DNA from: Dromaius novaehollandiae
Taxonomy: Eukaryota > Chordata > Aves > Casuariiformes > Dromaiidae
Direction: 5' to 3'
Assembly: GCF_036370855.1 (NCBI RefSeq)
Contig: NC_088102.1
Location: 70,069,601-70,133,600 of the forward strand
Length of the DNA stretch: 64,000 bases
Shown: positions 12,705 to 37,600 of the stretch, one piece after another
Layout of the letters: every line of letters begins with the position of its first letter
Numbering within the stretch: the stretch's first letter is position 1
Position numbers and translations under genes: made by a program
Notes under the pieces: model-generated
What the model saw: the letters and a program-made list of their open reading frames with translations, nothing else
What the model was told of the DNA's origin: nothing
Database searches by the model: none

Positions 12705-12709
12705 CCTGG
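12705..12709. repeat. Target-site duplication, left copy (CCTGG)
   Basis: The five bases just outside the left LTR are CCTGG. The same five bases follow the right LTR at 20637-20641. A 5-bp duplication is the normal footprint of retroviral integration. It shows that both ends come from a single insertion and that no flanking rearrangement followed. Confidence 0.9.
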
Positions 12710-12800
12710 TGTCCCGATCCAATATCGGGAGGGTTTCGTTACGATCCCAAGGACGAGATTAAGACGCTAAAACCGGTCAAATATCGTACAACCTTTTACC

Positions 12801-12806
12801 TTTATT
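12801..12806 (-). terminator. Retroviral polyadenylation signal AATAAA in 3' LTR
   Basis: Reading the minus strand gives AATAAA in the LTR. It is followed by U/GU-type sequence and the short remainder of the LTR. It would direct 3' end formation of the proviral transcript. The same hexamer occurs in the 5' LTR at 19776-19781. Confidence 0.7.
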
Positions 12807-13085
12807 TTCCACGAATTGGGGAGAAAAGGTGTGTGTGTGTGGGGGGGGAAGGCGAAGGGGAGGCGAAGGGAAAAAGGGAACAAGGGTAAGGGGAAAAGAT
12901 AGAGAAAAGTTGGAAAAGGAGAGAGGAAGCTAGCTACCACCACTCCGAGGCCGATGATGTTCCGCTGACTCCGCTCGAATCACAGCTCAAGCTGGGTGCC
13001 TCCGACGAGGGACGAGGAGCGAGGGCCGAGAGAGGGAGTGAGAAGGAGATGGTGGGGGGGGGGGGAACAAAGAAATCCCTCGGCA

Positions 13086-13091
13086 ATTATA
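13086..13091 (-). promoter_or_regulatory. Possible TATA box in 3' LTR copy
   Basis: The minus strand reads TATAAT here, in the middle of the LTR and about 280 bases upstream of AATAAA. That fits a U3-R-U5 division of typical size. A stronger match (TATAAAA) lies at 13449-13455, so the real promoter element is not settled. Confidence 0.35.
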
Positions 13092-13665
13092 GCTTTTTCA
13101 AATTAAGTTTTCCCACCCCTCACGTGGTAGTTCAGACCAATAGTAATATTTGGGTCTGGGGTCTCCTGCTCCTTATTGGGTCTCATCACTGTCCCTAGGT
13201 AGGCCGTTTACTGTTGCCGTTTCTGCTGACAGGTGTGTCTCCATTCTTAGGTCCAGCCATTAGCTCTCAAGGTCCTGACAAAGAAGGTGATAACTTCAGC
13301 AATTAGCACTGTTTCAGCAGTGCACAGGAATGCAAATTGCTAGTAACTCCCTTATCATTCCCGCCTGCAGCAGCTCTGGGCCCTTTCTCACTGTACTAGG
13401 GAGTGCGGCCTAAGGCTTCAGCAAATTTAGCCACTCATGCCAAGCAGGTTTTATAGAAGTTGTTCTAAAAACGGACAATAATTTACAGTCCCGATCCCAA
13501 AGTCTCTGCCCGATTGCGGTCTCGTTCAGTGCAGGCTTGGTGTGTCCCGGGTGGTCGCAGGGAGACCTTTTCAGGGGTCGCAGCAGCTCAAGTCGTTGTG
13601 GCCTGCCTGCACCCCATGCACCAAGAAATGTTTAAGGCAAAAAATTCATTCATCAGTCCGCCACA

Positions 13666-13674
13666 CCACCCCGT
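13666..13674 (-). other. Weak polypurine tract before the 3' LTR
   Basis: Directly before the 3' LTR, the minus strand reads ACGGGGTGG or close to it. A polypurine tract is needed here to prime plus-strand DNA synthesis. This one is short and broken by C and T, so it is a poor but positionally correct candidate. Confidence 0.45.
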
Positions 13675-13982
13675 GACTTAAACATTGATTGGTATGTCTC
13701 CTTCCTGAAGTCTTCATAGCCTTTGTTCACAGTGGTGATATGAGATAGAGATCAGAAGGAAGTATAGAAAGTGTAGAACACGTCGCGGGAAGAGTAAAAG
13801 GAAGGATATAGGTTCGGGTAAAAGGTGCTTAACAGTGATTAAACAGAGGTGTTGCCCAATGCAAGTTCATGCTTTAACAATTTTAGCAACATTTAACTTC
13901 ACAGAATAGACATCAAAATTGAGTTAACGAAGGTAAGTGATTGTTACAACAGGTATAACAGCTGACAAATGCGGTATGGATG

Positions 13983-15437
13983 TCAATATGCAATTTCCTC
14001 CTTCAGGGTGTGGTAGGAACAAATTGCATATTTGACACAACATGTCGGATTAATTGAACAAAGCAAGGAATTATACAAGGTAAAAAACATTAAAGCGGCA
14101 ATTGCACCTAACAAATACAATATGAACTGTTTCACCCATGGTGCCTCTGGTAACCAGGACCACAAATTGCCACTCCAGCCGTTCCAGGTTTGGACGGGGA
14201 CGTGGGCTATTTTTCTAATATCTTTGGTTAACTGGAGAACTACCTTGCCTACATCATCTATTTCTAAACAACAGTTGGAAATATTGAATTTCCCACACAC
14301 CCCTCCCTCTTCAGCTAACAGATAGTCTAAAACCATGCGGTGCTGAAGGATTGCCGTGCGCATCTGTTGGGACTGGAGAGTTAAAAGATCTATTGCATCA
14401 GCGGTTTTGTTGGTAATAATTTCTAGAGCCACTTTTAGGTTGTAAATTGGTTCTCTCACCCCCGATATTAGTTCATTAGGATTCCAGGTTGCAGGCCCAT
14501 AATGTTGAATTATTTGTTCAGGAGGCCACTCATTTCCCCATTTTTGCATCCCACCCAAATCTACCTTAATGGATCGCGTCTTACGGGCAACCCTTCTGTC
14601 CCCGAGGTTATCATATACCTTTATGCCTAACCGAGGTCCGCCTGTTTCTGGTAAAAGGAAAAACAATGGTCTGATAATCCCTATGTAACAAATTCCCGAC
14701 CACCCCGCGGGTAAAAATTTATATGCTGTGTGTCCACAGATCCAATAATGCCCCTTCTTAGCTCCGATGCCCTGAGCAAATGGCCCGTTTATCCCTGGTG
14801 GGAATTGAAAGTAAGTTGTGTCTCTGTCACCCAGAGGGCTGAAAAATGTGGTTGCCCCATCACCTATTCGGCCGGTACAATACCAAGCCCCAGAAGTGTC
14901 TTTCCATTCGCAGGTTCGCTTGTAAGGGGGATAATTGGGTCGTTGGTGAGTTACAGTTTCATTTTTGTTTGACCAGTATCCCCCAAGTCCCCAATTGTGC
15001 CCCGTTTCATTGAGCCACATCCATAGCTGGAGATTCCTGTCTTTATCGAGCAGTTTACAAGTAAGTGTCCATTGACTTTCCCCCACTTCAATCCCTCCCT
15101 CCTGGGTACAATTTAAACAATATTGTCCCATGGCTGGGAACTGAATTGGCCAGGTCCCACCGTCGTTCCACGTGTCATCCGCGGTTTCGCTGTAATTGCT
15201 TACGATCTGGTCTGGGGTGAGGGGTGTGGACATCCATGGCCAGCTTGATAACCCTATCGGTCCTCTGCAACCCCAGCAGTGGCTTAAATTGAAAGTTTGG
15301 CTTACTGCTTTCGCCAGCAACACGAACTCGTTGTTCTCGAAGGGATTAAATGGGTGGGGGGAAGGTAGAGGGAGTGGTCGTTCGTCGCCCTCATGGATGC
15401 ATCCTTGAATCTGGATGGTCCAGAGCAGTAGATGCAT
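13983..15437 (-). CDS. Env-like part of the ERV frame (possible 484-residue product)
   Basis: The methionine encoded at 15437 starts a short hydrophobic stretch that could serve as a signal peptide. From there the frame encodes a surface region rich in N-X-S/T sites and cysteines, the RKTR cleavage site, then a transmembrane subunit with a predicted helix, CX7CC, a tryptophan-rich membrane-proximal part and an anchor. It is shorter than usual for such Envs (often 550-650 residues), and I see no clear hydrophobic fusion peptide straight after the cleavage site. It could be made from a spliced subgenomic RNA. No splice acceptor was established. Confidence 0.7.
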   Translation of the reverse strand: MHLLLWTIQIQGCIHEGDERPLPLPSPHPFNPFENNEFVLLAKAVSQTFNLSHCWGCRGPIGLSSWPWMSTPLTPDQIVSNYSETADDTWNDGGTWPIQFPAMGQYCLNCTQEGGIEVGESQWTLTCKLLDKDRNLQLWMWLNETGHNWGLGGYWSNKNETVTHQRPNYPPYKRTCEWKDTSGAWYCTGRIGDGATTFFSPLGDRDTTYFQFPPGINGPFAQGIGAKKGHYWICGHTAYKFLPAGWSGICYIGIIRPLFFLLPETGGPRLGIKVYDNLGDRRVARKTRSIKVDLGGMQKWGNEWPPEQIIQHYGPATWNPNELISGVREPIYNLKVALEIITNKTADAIDLLTLQSQQMRTAILQHRMVLDYLLAEEGGVCGKFNISNCCLEIDDVGKVVLQLTKDIRKIAHVPVQTWNGWSGNLWSWLPEAPWVKQFILYLLGAIAALMFFTLYNSLLCSINPTCCVKYAICSYHTLKEEIAY

Positions 15438-18400
15438 CTTGGTCACACCACCACCTTTGAAAACATAAATAAGAACAAACTCGCTCCTCGGGTCAGGAGG
15501 AGGGAATAATCCATTTTGTGTGAATCTTGTAGGTTTTCCCACTAGCATCTTTTGCTCTCCGAATATATTTATTATTCTATTAACCTCCCAGGCATTTTGC
15601 TCCCAAAAAGGAAGCCATTTCAGGCAGCCTTTGAACACCATATGTGAGTCCGTGTAGATGTGTACAGGGGAAGTAGCCTGGCTTTTGCATTGGGATACGC
15701 TCCACACTGCAGCCAGCTCTCCCACCTGCGCACTGCCCTTTCCCTCTGTAATAATCTGCTCCTTAGTCCCCACTTGGAGCGCCACAGCCCGGTATCTCCA
15801 GGTTTTCCCTTCCCACTTTGAGGAAGCATCTGTGAACCATGCATTTAGGATCTGATCGGAAAATGTGGGAGCTACTTGAATTACAGAGGGAAGTTGGGGG
15901 GTTTCTTTATTCAAGTCTGCCTCATCTTGTATATTTAATACTTTAGTGGCTCCCTCTGTTACGGAGAAGATTTTACAATAATGCTTTATTTGTGCATACC
16001 ATTTTCGTACAGAGGCTCTCTGAGCCACCCTGTCAGGGGGCGAGGTCCCTGCCAGGACTGCTTTGGTCACCTTAAATGGCCCTCGGAGAACTAGGGGTTG
16101 TTTTCGAATAGTTCGTTCAGCCTCCCTTAGAGCAAGGCTGACTACAAACAGCCCCTTCTCCCATGTAGTATACCGCTTTTCAGCGTCTTTGAAGCTACGT
16201 GAATAAAACCCGATGGGCCGTGTAGGCCCCTCTGGTCCCTTCTGCCACAGGTGGATAGAGAGTCCGGTCCGGGCAAACCCCCATTCAATCTGGATAGGGT
16301 CGGTGGGGTGGATTGGCCCCAAGGCCTGGTAAGCATTTGCCTCAAAGACCAGCAGCTGCAACGCCTCATCGTGGACCGAGGTCCACTCCCAGTGAGCCCT
16401 TTTCCGTAGTAAGTCATATAATGGCCTAGCAATAATTGAAAAATCGGGAATGTGCTTCCTCCAAAACACAAGCAGCCCTAAAGCATGTTGCAAGTCCTTC
16501 TTGGACTCCGGCATTTTAATTGAGTCCAATGAGGATAGGGTATCCGGGGGAATGCAGGTCATCCCTCCCCTCCACCAAATTCCCAGAAATTTTACCTCGC
16601 TGGAGGGAGTTTGGATCTTTTCGGGCGGAATTGTCAGCCCTATCCGCTCTAGGTGGGCAATAATGTCGCACTGCGTTTTCTCAACGTCCTCTACCCGGCT
16701 CCCTCCCACGAGCACATCATCTATGTATTGATAAATTTTGACTCCTGCCTGTATGGGGACAGCTTCAAGCTCTTGTGCTAGCGCATGATGGGCTAGCGTA
16801 GGGGAGTGCTTGTACCCCTGAGGTAGTCGGGTGAACGTGTATTGCTGTCCCTCCCACGTGAAGGCAAAACGCTCTTGGTCCTCAGGCTGCAAAGGGACCA
16901 TAAAAAACATGTCTTTGACATCAGTTGTTGCCATCACAGGGTGGGACTGCTCCTGGATAGTCACTATTAATTCAGCAATGTTTGGCACAGCTGCCATCAA
17001 TGGGCCTGTATTGTTATTTAATTGCCAATAGTCTACAGTTAGTCTCCACTTATTTGGTTTTCGAACTGGCCATACAGGGGAATTGAAGGGGGACTGTGCT
17101 GGGATCACAACTCCCTGTTTTTTCAGGTCCTCCAATACTGGGCTAATTCCCTCTCTCGTTCCCAAAGGTAACGGATAGGGTTTTACATTAGTCAGCCGGG
17201 AAGGGGGGAGGGGAGGCGTCGCTTGCAGCGAGCGCACTGCCACACCGAAATCTCCGGTCAGTCTTCTGACCTGAGGAACGCCGAAAGACCACGAATTCCC
17301 CTGGGAATCCCGCCACTGTTTCCCCTTCAGGACGTCTATGCCTAAGAGGTTCATTTGAAAAGGCCCCACAGCCACCATAGTGTCCACAGGACTCTCTTCC
17401 CCTGGGAACCACAATGTTACCGGGGTCATGGGCACAGTCTGGGTCTTCCCCAGAGCACTTAAAACTATTAGGTGTTTGGAGGGGACCGAGATGCCACACC
17501 GTTCCGCCTCACTCCGTGTTAACGCTGTAATTTGGGCCCCTGTGTCAATTAAAAAAGTTACAGGCCTTCTCTTCGGCCCCACCGCTAGGGTGATTAACAA
17601 GTCTCCTTTGTTATTGCAGGTGAGCTGTCTTATAAACATCCGCCCTCCGCCTCCCCCCACACCCTGAGGGGGCGGAGGAGCCAGTTTTCCCACCGCCCTT
17701 TCATCCTCCTCGAACTCCTCCCCCACGTTTAACGCCGGTGCGGGGGGTTGTTTCGGTCTGGGCGGGGGTCCCTGTCCGGACCACCTTCGCACCAGAAGCT
17801 CTAGTTTTTTGGTCAGGAGCCCGTCCATCAAGTCTCGGGGCACACCCTTTTGCAGCCCCAATTGCCATAGTCCCTGCCGGGTCAGGGATCTTTCTCTTCT
17901 GGCCAAGTCTGGGCTCCTCCCAGAGAATGCCAGCGGCTTGTTTGCTGGCTCTGCCGCCCGCACGGCCCTAGTTTCTGCTTTTTGATAAGTCCGGCCGACT
18001 GGCCCATATTTCCTCCCATAATTGATCAGTTCTTGGGCTACCTCCCCCCAGGTCCACACCCTTTTTCCCAGCCGCTGATGCTCGGGGGTTACCATCCCCT
18101 CCAGGGCAGCCGCAATTCTCTCCTCGCGGGGTACATTTTGGATTCTCCCCTGCAATTGGATCCCAATAGGTTTCAGGGAATCAGGAAGTCCCCGTATTAG
18201 GGGTGTCATCCTCTCGGGATCTACTGGCAATAACATCGGAGAGCTCAAGTTCGGCTTGAGTTCCCGATCGTACATCATTTGCAGACAAGCTGCCTTTTGT
18301 ACACTTTCCAGCAACTGATCGACGGAACCTGTTATAGCTAGGGGATCCCCCCTTTCCAAAGGGTTCAGCCCCCCTGCCCAATACGCTGCCCTCTGAGTCA

Positions 18401-19187
18401 GGGACCACGGGGCTCGGCGATCGCCGGTTGTCAGGAACACGCCTGGGCCCCAATATCCCTCTGCCTCCTTTTCAGATAGCAGGATTCCGTCCCCCCCCGA
18501 CAGGGATACCCTCCACACGTATTCGGTTTCGGATTCCCTAGCCGTTCTGGCAAAATCCTTTCGCAGCTTGGCCAATTCGGTAGCTGTGAAAGGGATTTCT
18601 TTGGTAACAACCTGGGGGCGGTTGTCGCTATCATCCTCGTATATATATTCTGTTTTGACTAGTGGGCACATATGGGGGGGGTCGTCTACGGCCTCCTTTA
18701 GTCTTTTTAGGTCCCTTTGGGGGTAAATTTGGCGTACCCTTTTTCCTTCAGGCAGCACCTCACCTTCGGCAAGGGTGTCTGTCTCCCTCAGGAGCTGGTT
18801 TCTTAGCTCCTCTTTCAATATCAGACCCTGGTGTTTCTCCTCCTCCAGCGCCCGCTTGGTTTCCCGTAATTGTTCTTGCAGGGCTGTTACCGCCGCTTGC
18901 AGCGCGGCATTCGCAGCCTCCGCCTGACAAGGTGCCCGCTGCCTGTCCTCCACCGCAGCTGCTAGGCACGCTCCTAGCACAGCGCAAACAATAGCTTTCC
19001 CTTTTCCTCTCTTAACTTTAGCTTCTTTTTGCAAGACCGCTATCCGGTCCACTACACTTTGCAATTGGGACCAATGGTTCCGTGCCCAGTCTCGTCCTGA
19101 GGGCGAGGGGCGAGAACAGTGTATTTCCAAAAGGTCATATAGTTTCTCGATTTCTCCACAAAAGTCGCCTGCCTTCTGGGCGGCCAT
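13983..19187 (-). CDS. Fused Gag-protease-RT-RNase H-Env polyprotein of ERV
   Basis: One frame of 1734 codons starts at an ATG (19187) just after the repeat-bearing leader. Residues 1-540 are Gag-like. They include an alanine/glutamate-rich predicted coiled coil near 85-145 and no visible CCHC zinc knuckle. An aspartic protease follows (LIDTGAQ, catalytic D548). The reverse transcriptase has LPQGY and YIDD at 821-824. RNase H retains acidic residues D1120, E1157 and D1180, but its C-terminal part is lost near residue 1200. With no integrase in between, the frame enters Env. The likely Env initiator is M1251, with several N-glycosylation sites, a furin-type RKTR at 1535-1538, an 'LDYLLAEEGGVC'-type transmembrane-subunit motif with CX7CC at 1631-1640, and a hydrophobic anchor near 1690-1712. 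No stop or frameshift separates Gag from Pol. Similarity to avian ENS/ERNI-type and ERV3-like elements is inferred. Confidence 0.93.
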   Translation of the reverse strand: MAAQKAGDFCGEIEKLYDLLEIHCSRPSPSGRDWARNHWSQLQSVVDRIAVLQKEAKVKRGKGKAIVCAVLGACLAAAVEDRQRAPCQAEAANAALQAAVTALQEQLRETKRALEEEKHQGLILKEELRNQLLRETDTLAEGEVLPEGKRVRQIYPQRDLKRLKEAVDDPPHMCPLVKTEYIYEDDSDNRPQVVTKEIPFTATELAKLRKDFARTARESETEYVWRVSLSGGDGILLSEKEAEGYWGPGVFLTTGDRRAPWSLTQRAAYWAGGLNPLERGDPLAITGSVDQLLESVQKAACLQMMYDRELKPNLSSPMLLPVDPERMTPLIRGLPDSLKPIGIQLQGRIQNVPREERIAAALEGMVTPEHQRLGKRVWTWGEVAQELINYGRKYGPVGRTYQKAETRAVRAAEPANKPLAFSGRSPDLARRERSLTRQGLWQLGLQKGVPRDLMDGLLTKKLELLVRRWSGQGPPPRPKQPPAPALNVGEEFEEDERAVGKLAPPPPQGVGGGGGRMFIRQLTCNNKGDLLITLAVGPKRRPVTFLIDTGAQITALTRSEAERCGISVPSKHLIVLSALGKTQTVPMTPVTLWFPGEESPVDTMVAVGPFQMNLLGIDVLKGKQWRDSQGNSWSFGVPQVRRLTGDFGVAVRSLQATPPLPPSRLTNVKPYPLPLGTREGISPVLEDLKKQGVVIPAQSPFNSPVWPVRKPNKWRLTVDYWQLNNNTGPLMAAVPNIAELIVTIQEQSHPVMATTDVKDMFFMVPLQPEDQERFAFTWEGQQYTFTRLPQGYKHSPTLAHHALAQELEAVPIQAGVKIYQYIDDVLVGGSRVEDVEKTQCDIIAHLERIGLTIPPEKIQTPSSEVKFLGIWWRGGMTCIPPDTLSSLDSIKMPESKKDLQHALGLLVFWRKHIPDFSIIARPLYDLLRKRAHWEWTSVHDEALQLLVFEANAYQALGPIHPTDPIQIEWGFARTGLSIHLWQKGPEGPTRPIGFYSRSFKDAEKRYTTWEKGLFVVSLALREAERTIRKQPLVLRGPFKVTKAVLAGTSPPDRVAQRASVRKWYAQIKHYCKIFSVTEGATKVLNIQDEADLNKETPQLPSVIQVAPTFSDQILNAWFTDASSKWEGKTWRYRAVALQVGTKEQIITEGKGSAQVGELAAVWSVSQCKSQATSPVHIYTDSHMVFKGCLKWLPFWEQNAWEVNRIINIFGEQKMLVGKPTRFTQNGLFPPPDPRSEFVLIYVFKGGGVTKMHLLLWTIQIQGCIHEGDERPLPLPSPHPFNPFENNEFVLLAKAVSQTFNLSHCWGCRGPIGLSSWPWMSTPLTPDQIVSNYSETADDTWNDGGTWPIQFPAMGQYCLNCTQEGGIEVGESQWTLTCKLLDKDRNLQLWMWLNETGHNWGLGGYWSNKNETVTHQRPNYPPYKRTCEWKDTSGAWYCTGRIGDGATTFFSPLGDRDTTYFQFPPGINGPFAQGIGAKKGHYWICGHTAYKFLPAGWSGICYIGIIRPLFFLLPETGGPRLGIKVYDNLGDRRVARKTRSIKVDLGGMQKWGNEWPPEQIIQHYGPATWNPNELISGVREPIYNLKVALEIITNKTADAIDLLTLQSQQMRTAILQHRMVLDYLLAEEGGVCGKFNISNCCLEIDDVGKVVLQLTKDIRKIAHVPVQTWNGWSGNLWSWLPEAPWVKQFILYLLGAIAALMFFTLYNSLLCSINPTCCVKYAICSYHTLKEEIAY
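18990..19187 (-). other. Start region of the ERV Gag frame
   Basis: The ATG at 19185-19187 lies about 475 bases downstream of the primer-binding site, just after the third leader repeat unit in retroviral orientation. I chose it because it is the first methionine of the long frame and is followed directly by Gag-like sequence. I did not check for upstream ATGs in the leader. Confidence 0.55.
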
Positions 19188-19188
19188 A

Positions 19189-19490
19189 TCCTACAAAGGG
19201 GATTTCGTCCCGGGAGGGCCAAACCTTAAATGAGTCCAAGTTTCCCCTATACGCTCCCGGGAGGCCAAACCGTAAGCTACTACAAAAAATGTCCTACAAA
19301 GGGGATATCATCCTGAGGGGGTCACACCTTAAAATCCAAGTTTCCCCTATACACCCTCAGGAGGCCAAACCGTATACTAGTACAAAAATGTCCTACAAAA
19401 GGGATATCGTCCTGAGGGGGTCACACCTTAAAATCCAGTTTTCCCCTATACGCCCTCAGGAAGCCAAACCACAAACCAGTATACTAAAAA
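19189..19490 (-). repeat. Tandem repeat in ERV leader, about three ~100-bp units
   Basis: Units begin at 19189, 19292 and 19391 on the plus strand, each with TCCTACAAA(A/G)GGGAT. Spacings are 103 and 99 bases. Inside each unit a shorter motif (ending GGAGGCCAAACC or near it) recurs, giving internal half-repeats. The array fills the leader between primer-binding site and Gag, where packaging and dimerisation signals normally lie. The units have drifted slightly from each other, so the array is older than this insertion. Confidence 0.85.
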
Positions 19491-19660
19491 TCTCACCATT
19501 CACTCCTTCCTTACGCTTCGTTCGTCTCCGGCCGCTTCCCTCGCGGGAGAGCGGAACCGCGGATCGGAACTCCGCACTCGCTTCGTACTTGTTCGTACGT
19601 CTCATTCACACACAATCGCTCAGCACACCATAAGGTTGTACGACACTCTCGTCTCAAGGG

Positions 19661-19678
19661 ATCCTGTCCGTGACGCCA
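19661..19678 (-). other. Primer-binding site of the ERV
   Basis: Six bases inside the 5' LTR, the minus strand reads TGGCGTCACGGACAGGAT. A TGG start is expected where a tRNA 3' CCA pairs. The first six and last four bases agree with serine-tRNA type sites as I recall them, and the middle does not. Leucine-type sites fit less well. The tRNA assignment is therefore tentative; the position makes the site itself likely. Confidence 0.7.
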
Positions 19679-19775
19679 ATTAGATGTCCCGATCCAATAT
19701 CGGGAGGGTTTCGTTACGATCCCAAGGACGAGATTAAGACGCTAAAACCGGTCAAATATCGTACAACCTTTTACC

Positions 19776-19781
19776 TTTATT
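19776..19781 (-). terminator. AATAAA in 5' LTR copy
   Basis: This is the same hexamer as in the 3' LTR. In the 5' copy it is normally bypassed. Confidence 0.6.
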
Positions 19782-20419
19782 TTCCACGAATTGGGGAGAA
19801 AAGGTGTGTGTGTGTGGGGGGGGAAGGCGAAGGGGAGGCGAAGGGAAAAAGGGAACAAGGGTAAGGGGAAAAGATAGAGAAAAGTTGGAAAAGGAGAGAG
19901 GAAGCTAGCTACCACCACTCCGAGGCCGATGATGTTCCGCTGACTCCGCTCGAATCACAGCTCAAGCTGGGTGCCTCCGACGAGGGACGAGGAGCGAGGG
20001 CCGAGAGAGGGAGTGAGAAGGAGATGGTGGGGGGGGAACAAAGAAATCCCTCGGCAATTATAGCTTTTTCAAATTAAGTTTTCCCACCCCTCACGTGGTA
20101 GTTCAGACCAATAGTAATATTTGGGTCTGGGGTCTCCTGCTCCTTATTGGGTCTCATCACTGTCCCTAGGTAGGCCGTTTACTGTTGCCGTTTCTGCTGA
20201 CAGGTGTGTCTCCATTCTTAGGTCCAGCCATTAGCTCTCAAGGTCCTGACAAAGAAGGTGATAACTTCAGCAATTAGCACTGTTTCAGCAGTGCACAGGA
20301 ATGCAAATTGCTAGTAACTCCCTTATCATTCCCGCCTGCAGCAGCTCTGGGCCCTTTCTCACTGTACTAGGGAGTGCGGCCTAAGGCTTCAGCAAATTTA
20401 GCCACTCATGCCAAGCAGG

Positions 20420-20426
20420 TTTTATA
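20420..20426 (-). promoter_or_regulatory. Possible TATA box in 5' LTR
   Basis: The minus strand reads TATAAAA about 215 bases into the LTR. It is a good TATA match, but it would give an unusually short U3 and long R. The alternative TATAAT lies further into the LTR. Confidence 0.35.
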
Positions 20427-20636
20427 GAAGTTGTTCTAAAAACGGACAATAATTTACAGTCCCGATCCCAAAGTCTCTGCCCGATTGCGGTCTCGTTCAG
20501 TGCAGGCTTGGTGTGTCCCGGGTGGTCGCAGGGAGACCTTTTCAGGGGTCGCAGCAGCTCAAGTCGTTGTGGCCTGCCTGCACCCCATGCACCAAGAAAT
20601 GTTTAAGGCAAAAAATTCATTCATCAGTCCGCCACA

Positions 20637-20641
20637 CCTGG
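20637..20641. repeat. Target-site duplication, right copy (CCTGG)
   Basis: This is the pair of the CCTGG at 12705-12709. Host sequence resumes here with no further similarity to the left flank. Confidence 0.9.
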
Positions 20642-34600: not shown

Positions 34601-37600
34601 GGGACTAAAGGCAGCGGTCACCTGTCGACGCCAAGAAGTACCCCTCCAGCACGGGCCCGTAGCCGCCGGGGTTTCGGCCGAAGTCGCTGATGACGAAGGG
34701 CTGCGGCTCGGCGTCCACGGCGTTGAGCGGCCAGCGCGGGGCGCGGACGCCGGCACCCCCGTACCAGGAGACGTTGGCCATGGAGAAGCAATCCTGCGGC
34801 CGGAGAGAGCGGCTGAGCCCCGCCGCGGGCTTATTTAAAACCATCCAGCGGTGCAAAAAGGCGGAAGTAGGAGGAAAAAAAAGCAAAAATCCTAACAAAA
34901 ACCCAGAGCGCCGTTTATGCGCTTGGCTTACCTTTAAGACCGCAAAAGCCTTAACGTTTTAATCTAAAGCTACTTTCGCTTCCTTTTGCCCTTACGCCAG
35001 AGTTCAACGCGCAGCTGGATGGAGAAAGCCCTGTCACGGGAATCATAAAAACCACATTCCTCCAAAATTAACTTCCTTTAAAAAGAAAAAAAGGCAAGTG
35101 CTCAAAATACCCACAGGTGCCCCACAGTTTTAGACAGATGGAACTTAAAAAAAGAAAATCCCTCTGAAACACCCTGATGACCCAGTGGTAATGCAGTTGC
35201 GTGATACCCGATGCCTCAGCAATGCCAAATCCTTCACTTCTGCACACAACAATTATTAAAATTAGCTGTTTTTAACAGCTGGAGCTGCTGGGGGAAGGAT
35301 GCTGAGAAGGCAGGAAGAGGTTAAGTCTCCCTGAGGGCTGGGAAAGGAGAGCTGAATTATTAAAGTGGAAATCTTCGAGGCGTGCAAGAGCTGGGCCGGG
35401 TTTCAGCTCAGCTCTTTGCACCAGCTAGGGAGGAAAAAAAAGAAAAAAGGCAAAAAAAATACCCCATTCTTGAGACTTTTGTCTTTCCATGGATCAGGCA
35501 CGTTCTGCTGGCCTGAATCACCCAAGGGTGATTTGGGACCAAGGAGAAAAAAACCATCCGGGTGCCCCATCCCGTTCCCTCTCCCGCTGCCCAGCGAGCG
35601 TCTCGGTGGCATCCAGCTCTTTTGTCTGTTTTTTGCTCTTTCCCTCCCTGAGCATTGTCTGAAAAAGCTCTTTTTTTCCCCCTCCAAGGCGGCAAATCGG
35701 AGGCCGCGCAAGCAAAACCCCCGTAAAGCTCCGCGCGCTGAGTGGCCGCGTCGTGCCTGCGGTCGGAAAAAAGCCCTTTCCCGACTTTTCTCCCCTTAAA
35801 ACCTCCGTTTATCCCGCCTATGCACAAGCACATCAGCACCCCACGGCGAGGGGCCGCTATTTCGGCGCCCGTCCCGTCCCATCCCCTACCCGGCACCACT
35901 GCGTCTCCCATGGGTGCTGTGCTGAGCCTGCTTTTTCCCATGCAGGGGCCACTTTTTCCCGCACAGAGACTACACCGAGGCCACTTTTTCCCATGCAGGG
36001 CCATTTTTTCCCCATGCAGGGGCCACTTTTCCCATGCAGGGGCCACCCCAAGGCCACTTTTTCCCATGCAGGGCCACCTTTTCCCACCCCGAGGCCACTT
36101 TTTCCCGCAAAAGGGCCGCATTGAGACCACTTTTTCCTGCACAGTGGCCACGCTGAAGCCACTTTTTCCTGTGCCGGGGCCACCCCGAGGACACTTTTTC
36201 CTGTGCAGGAACACTTTTTCCCACTCCAGGGCCACCCCAAGGCCACTTTTCCCATGCAGGGCCACTTTTTCCCATACAAAGGCCACACTAAGACCACTTT
36301 TTCCTGGGCAGGGGCCACCCCGAGGCCACTTCTTCCTGTGCAGGGCCACTTTTTCCCACTCCAGGGCCACCCCAAGGCCACTTTTTCCCACGCAGGGGCC
36401 ACTTTTCCCACGCAGGGGCCACCCCAAGGCCACTCTTCCCATGCAGGGCCACTTTTTGCCATGCCGGGGCCACCCCAAGGACACTTTTTCCTGTACCAGG
36501 GCCACTTTTTCCCCTTTCTCCCATGCAGAGACCACCCTGAGGCCACTTTCTCCCACCCCAAGGCCACTTTTTCCCCATACAAGGGCCACACTAAGACGAC
36601 TTTTTCCTGTGCTGGGGCCACCCTGAGACCACTTCTCCCATGCAGGGCCACTTTTTCCCGTGCCGGGGCCACTTTTTCCTACACAGGGACCACCCCAAGG
36701 CCACTTTTTCCCACCCCGAGGCCACTTTTTCCCCATACAAAGGCCACGCTAAGACCACTTTTTCCCGTGCCGGGGCTACTTTTTCCCACTTTTTCCCGTG
36801 CCAGGGCCACTTTTTCCCCACTTTTTCCCCACTTTTTCCCGTGCCGGGGCCACTTTCTCCCATGCCAGGGCCACTTTTTCCCCACTTTTTCCTGTGCCAG
36901 GGCCACTTTTTCCCATGCCAGGGCCACTTTTTCCCCACTTTTTCCTGTGCTGGGGCCACTTTTTCCCGTGCCGGGGCCACTTTTTCCCCACTTTTTCCCG
37001 TGCCGGGGCCACTTTTTCCCACTTTTTCCCATGCCAGGGCCACTTTTTCCCACTTTCTCCCATGCCAGGGCCACTTTTTCCCCACTTTTTCCTGTGCCGG
37101 GGCCACTTTTTCCCGTGCCGGGGCCACTTTTTCCCACTTTTTCCCGTGCCGGGGCCACTTTTTCCCACTTTTCCCCACCCCGAGGCCACTTTTCCCCACC
37201 CCGAGGCCACTTTTCCCGCGCCGTTACCTTCAGCGCGGCGCCGGGCTGCAGCGGGGTCCAGGCGAGGCTGTAGCACTCGGCGGCTCCGGCGGCCTCCTCG
37301 AGGGCCACGTGCAGCTCGGCCGCCTCGTCCCAGGCGCCGCAGAAGCGGCCGCCGTCGGGGCGGCAGCGGTCCGGGGGCAGCGGCAGCCCGGCGGCGGCCC
37401 CGGCGGCCAGGGCCACGGCGGCCAGCGGGCGCCCGGCCCCGCGGCGCAGCAGCAGCACGGCGCCGGCGCGGCGCTCCCAGGCCAGGCCGGCCGCGGGGCC
37501 CCGCAGCAGCCAGGCCCGCCGCGGCGCCTCCGCCGCCTGCCACGAGACCACGCCGATGGTGAGGACGAAGAAGACGGCCACGCCGAGGCAGGCCACGGCG

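Follow-up and report, generated by a model that had tools for sequence, protein, structure and literature searches.

Retroviral genes in a single frame

The DNA analysed here, referred to throughout as the window, is a stretch of 64,000 nucleotides of the Dromaius novaehollandiae genome (assembly GCF_036370855.1, contig NC_088102.1, positions 70,069,601 to 70,133,600). It contains an endogenous retrovirus (ERV) on the minus strand, at 12710-20636, with a simple layout of a long terminal repeat (LTR), one long open reading frame (ORF), and a second LTR. The ORF (13983-19187, minus strand, 1,734 codons) comprises Gag, protease, reverse transcriptase (RT), a truncated RNase H and Env in one frame. 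An earlier note, made from the letters of this DNA, had described such a Gag-Pro-RT-Env frame and had proposed an integrase-less provirus with RNase H fused in frame to Env, and we observe the same. Searched in four separate pieces, the frame matched the Pfam aspartyl protease, RVT_1, RNase_H (positions 6-90 of 141 only) and TLV_coat (442-545 of 560) profiles, and the integrase profile had no match in any of the four. The integrase piece of a relative in the same genome was also searched against the 64 kb of the window, and its best hit (E 0.26) is not credible; in the positive control, two integrase-bearing loci were recovered at E 2e-145 or better. No integrase was thus found at any place in the window, including the other frames between 15437 and 15650 that the same note had named. 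The features of the provirus are as follows (window coordinates, strand, description).

12705..12709, no strand: target-site duplication CCTGG, left copy (flank letters)
12710..13665, minus: 3' LTR, TGT...ACA on the minus strand (LTR-LTR alignment)
13666..13682, minus: polypurine-tract region adjoining the 3' LTR; the same stretch and LTR start occur in one integrase-bearing copy
13983..15437, minus: Env part of the frame, with a likely ATG of its own at residue 1251, CWGC at 1304, RKTRS at 1535 and a transmembrane-type TLV_coat match
15438..15572, minus: env-frame stretch linking RNase H to Env, open here; in relatives with integrase, it and the 3' end of pol overlap
15572..15573, minus: deletion junction, where integrase-bearing copies have about 950 bp more
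15579..15839, minus: remainder of RNase H (profile positions 6-90 of 141), with the three acidic motifs FTDAS, GELAA and YTDSH but without the C-terminal third
16578..17063, minus: RT core (RVT_1, Pfam), YIDD at residue 821
17325..17567, minus: aspartyl protease (Pfam), IDTGA at residue 547
17685..19187, minus: putative Gag, in frame with protease; 3' edge approximate
19189..19470, minus: leader, in which a 99-bp unit is repeated 2.8 times in tandem, up to the ORF
19661..19678, minus: candidate primer-binding site, placed by position
19685..20636, minus: 5' LTR (LTR-LTR alignment)
20637..20641, no strand: target-site duplication CCTGG, right copy (flank letters)

The two LTRs align with 0 mismatches and a single 4-bp gap within a G run, their termini are TGT...ACA, and the 5-bp target duplication CCTGG is present on either side of the provirus. 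Given a bird substitution rate of 1.9e-9 per site per year, the LTR divergence yields an insertion age of at most 0.83 million years (95% upper limit).

The Gag part of the frame had no Pfam or NCBIfam match, and we assign it to Gag by its position and by its 98-99% identity to the gag frames of integrase-bearing copies. The ATG at nucleotide 15437 (residue 1251) is the likely start of Env, and hence Env of this element is probably not truncated, although its N-terminal half had no Pfam match; given the same ATG, Env might also be produced from a spliced RNA. The best solved-structure match of the Env piece is Syncytin-2 (2.7e-15), and a search of Env for the CX6CC pattern gave no match. For RT, the best matches (3e-30), which we take to be foamy, are only slightly ahead of the gammaretroviral ones (1.3e-28).

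The 99-bp leader repeat stops right at the ORF start and might influence packaging or translation. Elsewhere in the window, a minisatellite block at 35933-37217, rich in GC, strongly skewed and with units of about 20-53 bp, yields long overlapping ORFs on both strands; in a search for other genes, ten larger ORFs of the window had no Pfam match above the cut-off, and an Rfam search of the window gave no matches.

The deletion and the relatives that retain integrase

We compared the stretch from RNase H to env at 52 distinct places of the same genome, designated below by L numbers: the first 30 from the list of RNase H pattern matches (window included), two from the 301-bp matches, and 20 chosen from the former list to sample variants. 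The segment absent from the window copy (about 950 bp), which in its relatives encodes the end of RNase H and integrase, is missing at 44 of these places and kept at eight. Comparison with the integrase-bearing copies sets the join between 15573 and 15572, at residue ~1205, with a 1-nt ambiguity (the coordinate was obtained by arithmetic). Thus RNase H runs some 25 residues beyond D1180, where the earlier note had its pattern end. The note had the frame enter Env at about residue 1251, the position of the likely Env ATG; residues from about 1205 to 1250 are env-frame sequence, which overlaps with the end of pol in the relatives.

In the copy L072, the kept segment contains the end of RNase H and integrase with the HX4HX28CX2C and DX57DX35E motifs, and is open across the 240-aa integrase piece; pol ends in one frame, and env overlaps its end in another. 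This integrase matches the rve profile (6e-14), with the prototype foamy virus (PFV) enzyme as the best solved-structure match. The kept form exceeds the deleted one by 951-956 bp in six full copies and by about 900 bp in L085; in L080 no env follows within 3 kb.

All 44 deleted copies share one breakpoint, with an adjoining substitution in L079 and a small extra deletion nearby in L086. Right of the breakpoint, the letters of the full-length form are kept in seven of them (L069, L070, L077, L078, L079, L086, L087; L069 carries one further change), and most of the others share a derived form. Thus, one old deletion is the simplest account. The deletion itself is old, being common to diverged subfamilies, and only the insertion in the window, with its LTRs free of substitutions, is young. 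An assembly error is an unlikely source of the junction, which recurs at many places, diverged copies included. Since an env splice acceptor would be expected between pol and env, where the segment is located, one could suppose that it is an intron lost by reverse transcription of a spliced RNA; however, its ends in the full-length copies are not GT...AG and have 1 nt of overlap, as in template switching, so that the junction letters contradict this explanation and we consider it highly improbable.

The earlier note had suggested a search for full-length relatives, and these exist. Besides the eight compared places that keep the segment, a 33-mer of integrase was found at 52 places in the genome (up to 3 mismatches, as for all pattern searches; reversed control, 0). 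Pol frames of 1,053 or 1,056 codons occur in 24 of the 131 rows of scored RT matches, with 502-codon gag frames at matching places; these were taken as integrase-bearing by position, and many are in clusters. Among the matches listed, the separate-frame relatives are 98-99% identical to the window copy in Gag and 95-98% in RT, and the LTR start and polypurine region of the window recur in one copy with integrase.

Regularly spaced integrase-bearing relatives were observed at C25:6.57-6.65 Mb and C11:8-99 kb (nine and seven integrase pattern places, respectively), which are provirus-containing tandem duplications; the integrase of a C25 copy has a stop codon. There is also a second related family (RT about 76% identical, pol frames of 1,046 codons) at six places on five contigs.

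Copies, subfamilies and constraint

A 26-mer spanning the junction was found at 215 places in the genome and an RNase H 29-mer at 163 (reversed control, 0 for both). Thus the junction is not due to chance, and the sharing of it by many copies, which the note had named as support for a mobile deleted family, is observed. All 40 scored 301-bp matches (the best 40 of 381 candidates) share it at 98-100% identity. A 100-aa piece spanning the join had 532 candidate matches; among the 150 scored, frames without an inner stop have 1,735 codons in ten cases, 1,716-1,726 in 23, and 1,670 in two; the other 115 have a shorter frame or a stop. The ten 1,735-codon copies include a tandem pair on C4.

Target duplications were looked for in five copies, the window and four others with retrieved ends. 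Four have 5-bp duplications of their own (CCTGG in the window, CAGGT, CCTCA and GGAGC), and in the fifth the 5' end is not at the expected place, the gag match beginning only at residue 130. The LTR termini together with different duplications at four sites show that copies lacking integrase were inserted by an integrase. The copies could alternatively have multiplied mainly by segmental or tandem duplication, and part of the copy number indeed is tandem or clustered (C4 at 6.9-kb spacing, C124 and C252 at 7.3 kb, C35, C5:73-75 Mb). This explanation is contradicted for the four sites by their different flanks and duplications, and the deleted copies are spread over many contigs; as the main route of multiplication, we regard it as having hardly any chance of being correct. 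In addition, 39 of the 131 scored matches to the window Env piece are at C5:73.3-75.0 Mb, most with a 410-codon frame, a local amplification of related env sequence.

The deleted copies form several subfamilies. The same 2-base env frameshift is found at 14 places, eight of which also have a stop shortly after the join; in most of these 14 copies, 84 bp of the RT connection have been lost in frame (subfamily B). A 1,232-codon Gag-Pro-RT frame is present at eight places, five of them among the env-frameshifted copies (among the matches listed). One env stop is scattered over both full and deleted copies, and hence the shared frameshift is a better mark of descent than shared stops. The frameshift at 14 places implies that Env is dispensable, so that fusion to Env would not be required for the spread of the deleted family; Gag-Pro-RT seems to be kept while Env is not needed for spread. 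The groups with 1,719- and 1,721-codon frames carry the same join (one copy of each compared); the listed matches to the window gag and RT include neither gag nor RT of these groups, which probably sit on another gag-RT background. Gag and protease, which share a frame in the window copy, are in different frames in the one integrase-bearing copy compared there.

In quick trees (repeat retrievals of one place omitted, as well as L086 from the RNase H piece and L080 from the env piece), the RNase H piece places the window group and subfamily B within an all-deleted set of 36 rows (support 88), compatible with one origin of the deletion. In the tree of the env piece, deleted and full copies interleave, and the starred branches force at least two changes. 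One breakpoint combined with an interleaved env tree suggests template switching between deleted and full RNAs and hence points to their co-packaging, which is indirect evidence for the helper. In older copies, both full and deleted (L070, L077, L078, L082, L083, L087, L088), the 5' half of the LTR is different and the 3' end similar; parts of LTRs have been exchanged.

For the RT connection, the ratio of nonsynonymous to synonymous rates (dN/dS) between deleted copies is 0.16 for window-L034 (confidence interval 0.07-0.32), 0.16 for window-L020, 0.23 for window-L081, 0.29 for window-L082, 0.33 for window-L014, 0.39 for window-L075 and 0.40 for L034-L014 (0.20-0.87), the upper confidence limits being below 1 in all seven pairs; for two full copies, L072-L084, it is 0.18. 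Thus, RT is constrained between deleted subfamilies (0.16-0.40). The RNase H remnant has too few changes for dN/dS. Within subfamily A, to which the window belongs, env has 28 nonsynonymous changes, 27 synonymous changes and 2 stops (expected 37.3, 16.8 and 3.0) and looks mildly constrained. Codons adjoining indels were masked in dN/dS and change counts; the latter omit repeat retrievals of one place and L009, L021-L024, L076, L080, L081 and L083 (mosaic, gappy or duplicate rows).

Spread of the deleted family and its parallels

The observations are best accounted for by a family of non-autonomous ERVs whose mobilisation depends on full-length relatives acting in trans from the same genome, an explanation to which we assign a probability of about 0.82. 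In this account, a single deletion of about 950 bp in a gag-pol-env ancestor took away integrase entirely, together with the last third of RNase H, and by chance brought RT/RNase H into frame with Env. Full-length relatives would then assist the packaging, reverse transcription and integration of the deleted RNAs: they would supply integrase in trans, probably along with complete RNase H and free Gag, work on LTR ends of the same kind, and exchange sequence with the deleted element by recombination. That integrase comes from a helper, as the earlier note proposed, that these relatives are the helpers, and that the RNAs are co-packaged, we infer from the genome sequence.

Several observations weigh against this account. 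The integrase-bearing copies L080, L084, L085 and L088 have a frameshift or stops, and L090 has a stop in integrase; many integrase-bearing places form tandem or local clusters (C8, C11, C25, C93), and the LTR start differs in another copy with integrase. A separate 502-codon gag frame exists in at least four deleted copies (C158:1.22M, C206:2.21M, C31:3.23M, C1:182.4M); hence the one-frame layout is not universal and the gag-pro fusion is not fixed in the deleted family, having presumably arisen later or more than once, or been swapped by recombination. The env dN/dS between the window and subfamily B copies (0.74-0.87) does not differ from 1. Finally, RT/RNase H within subfamily A has 11 nonsynonymous changes, 7 synonymous changes and 1 stop, with 11.9, 6.0 and 1.0 expected, and these changes look neutral.

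Within the account of mobilisation by relatives, the role of the encoded proteins may differ. The Gag-Pro-RT(-Env) fusion product might aid its own RNA in cis, a suggestion that we put at somewhat under even odds. A pure passenger, whose products are irrelevant and whose open frame reflects youth and recent recombination with functional relatives, is a serious though not a favoured option: it agrees with the frameshift that breaks Env at 14 places, the neutral look of RT/RNase H within subfamily A, and the recombination with full copies seen in the env tree, but the low dN/dS of the RT connection between deleted copies, the frames of at least 1,716 codons in 33 of the 150 scored junction copies, and the in-frame loss of 84 bp in subfamily B speak against it. 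Rather unlikely is a working Gag-Pro-RT-Env polyprotein, that is, a one-frame semi-autonomous lineage that would have passed through several subfamily radiations with its own Gag, RT and Env, borrowing only integrase (and RNase H), its integrase-deletion/env module being passed by recombination to different gag-RT backgrounds. Integrase could also be supplied by some other ERV family. The genome has many other integrase genes (the best 150 of 4,169 candidates were scored for PF00665, all above the cut-off), among them possible donors such as the family with RT about 76% identical; however, the mosaic trees and the 98-99% Gag identity tie the deleted family to its own full-length relatives, one of which has the LTR start of the window, and we therefore consider a foreign source improbable.

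The closest precedent is the 1-Delta-1 subtype of the mouse intracisternal A-particle (IAP). This partly deleted, non-autonomous subtype of an ERV encodes a novel fusion protein, created in frame by its deletion, and needs proteins from full-length copies in trans (PMC6466679, PMC7411935); the fusion product is reported to help in cis, and the subtype to be the commonest source of new insertions. The deletion in the window family similarly yields an in-frame fusion. However, the 1.9-kb deletion of IAP 1-Delta-1 joins gag to pol, without env, whereas the deletion described here takes about 950 bp out of RNase H and integrase and joins the remainder to Env; by sequence the window family is not an IAP, as it has env (the in-frame TLV_coat match) and a foamy-like integrase match in its relatives.

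Judged by matches only, Pol and Env are similar to those of class III ERVs that carry a class I env, for example XtERV-S of frogs, which keeps integrase (PMC8278194). The features in common are TGT...ACA LTR termini, a 5-bp target duplication (for XtERV-S, reported in related copies), class I transmembrane Env, and protease in the pol frame; pol is foamy/ERV-L-like in XtERV-S, and the matches of the present family suggest that it may be so here. The integrase motifs are HX4HX28CX2C and DX58DX35E in XtERV-S, and HX4HX28CX2C and DX57DX35E in L072. In XtERV-S, gag and pol are in one frame with a stop between them, whereas in the full-length relative here gag and protease are in different frames.

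Among other mouse elements, ETn (with MusD) and VL30 (with murine leukemia virus) are non-autonomous LTR elements whose mobilisation has been attributed to coding-competent relatives in the same genome or to co-packaged virus, and the window family would likewise be mobilised by relatives in its genome. These passengers have little coding capacity, whereas the window family keeps a long frame in many copies. Among the open-access papers listed in our searches, we saw neither an avian ERV family with integrase deleted nor a family with Gag-Pro-RT-Env in one frame.

Thus, one genome would hold both a parasite and its helper: one deletion with descendants in several subfamilies, and full-length relatives, some of them 98-99% identical in Gag, that retain the lost part. 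What an ERV may gain from losing integrase, and whether a fusion protein made by a deletion helps its own RNA, would thereby become testable outside mouse IAP.

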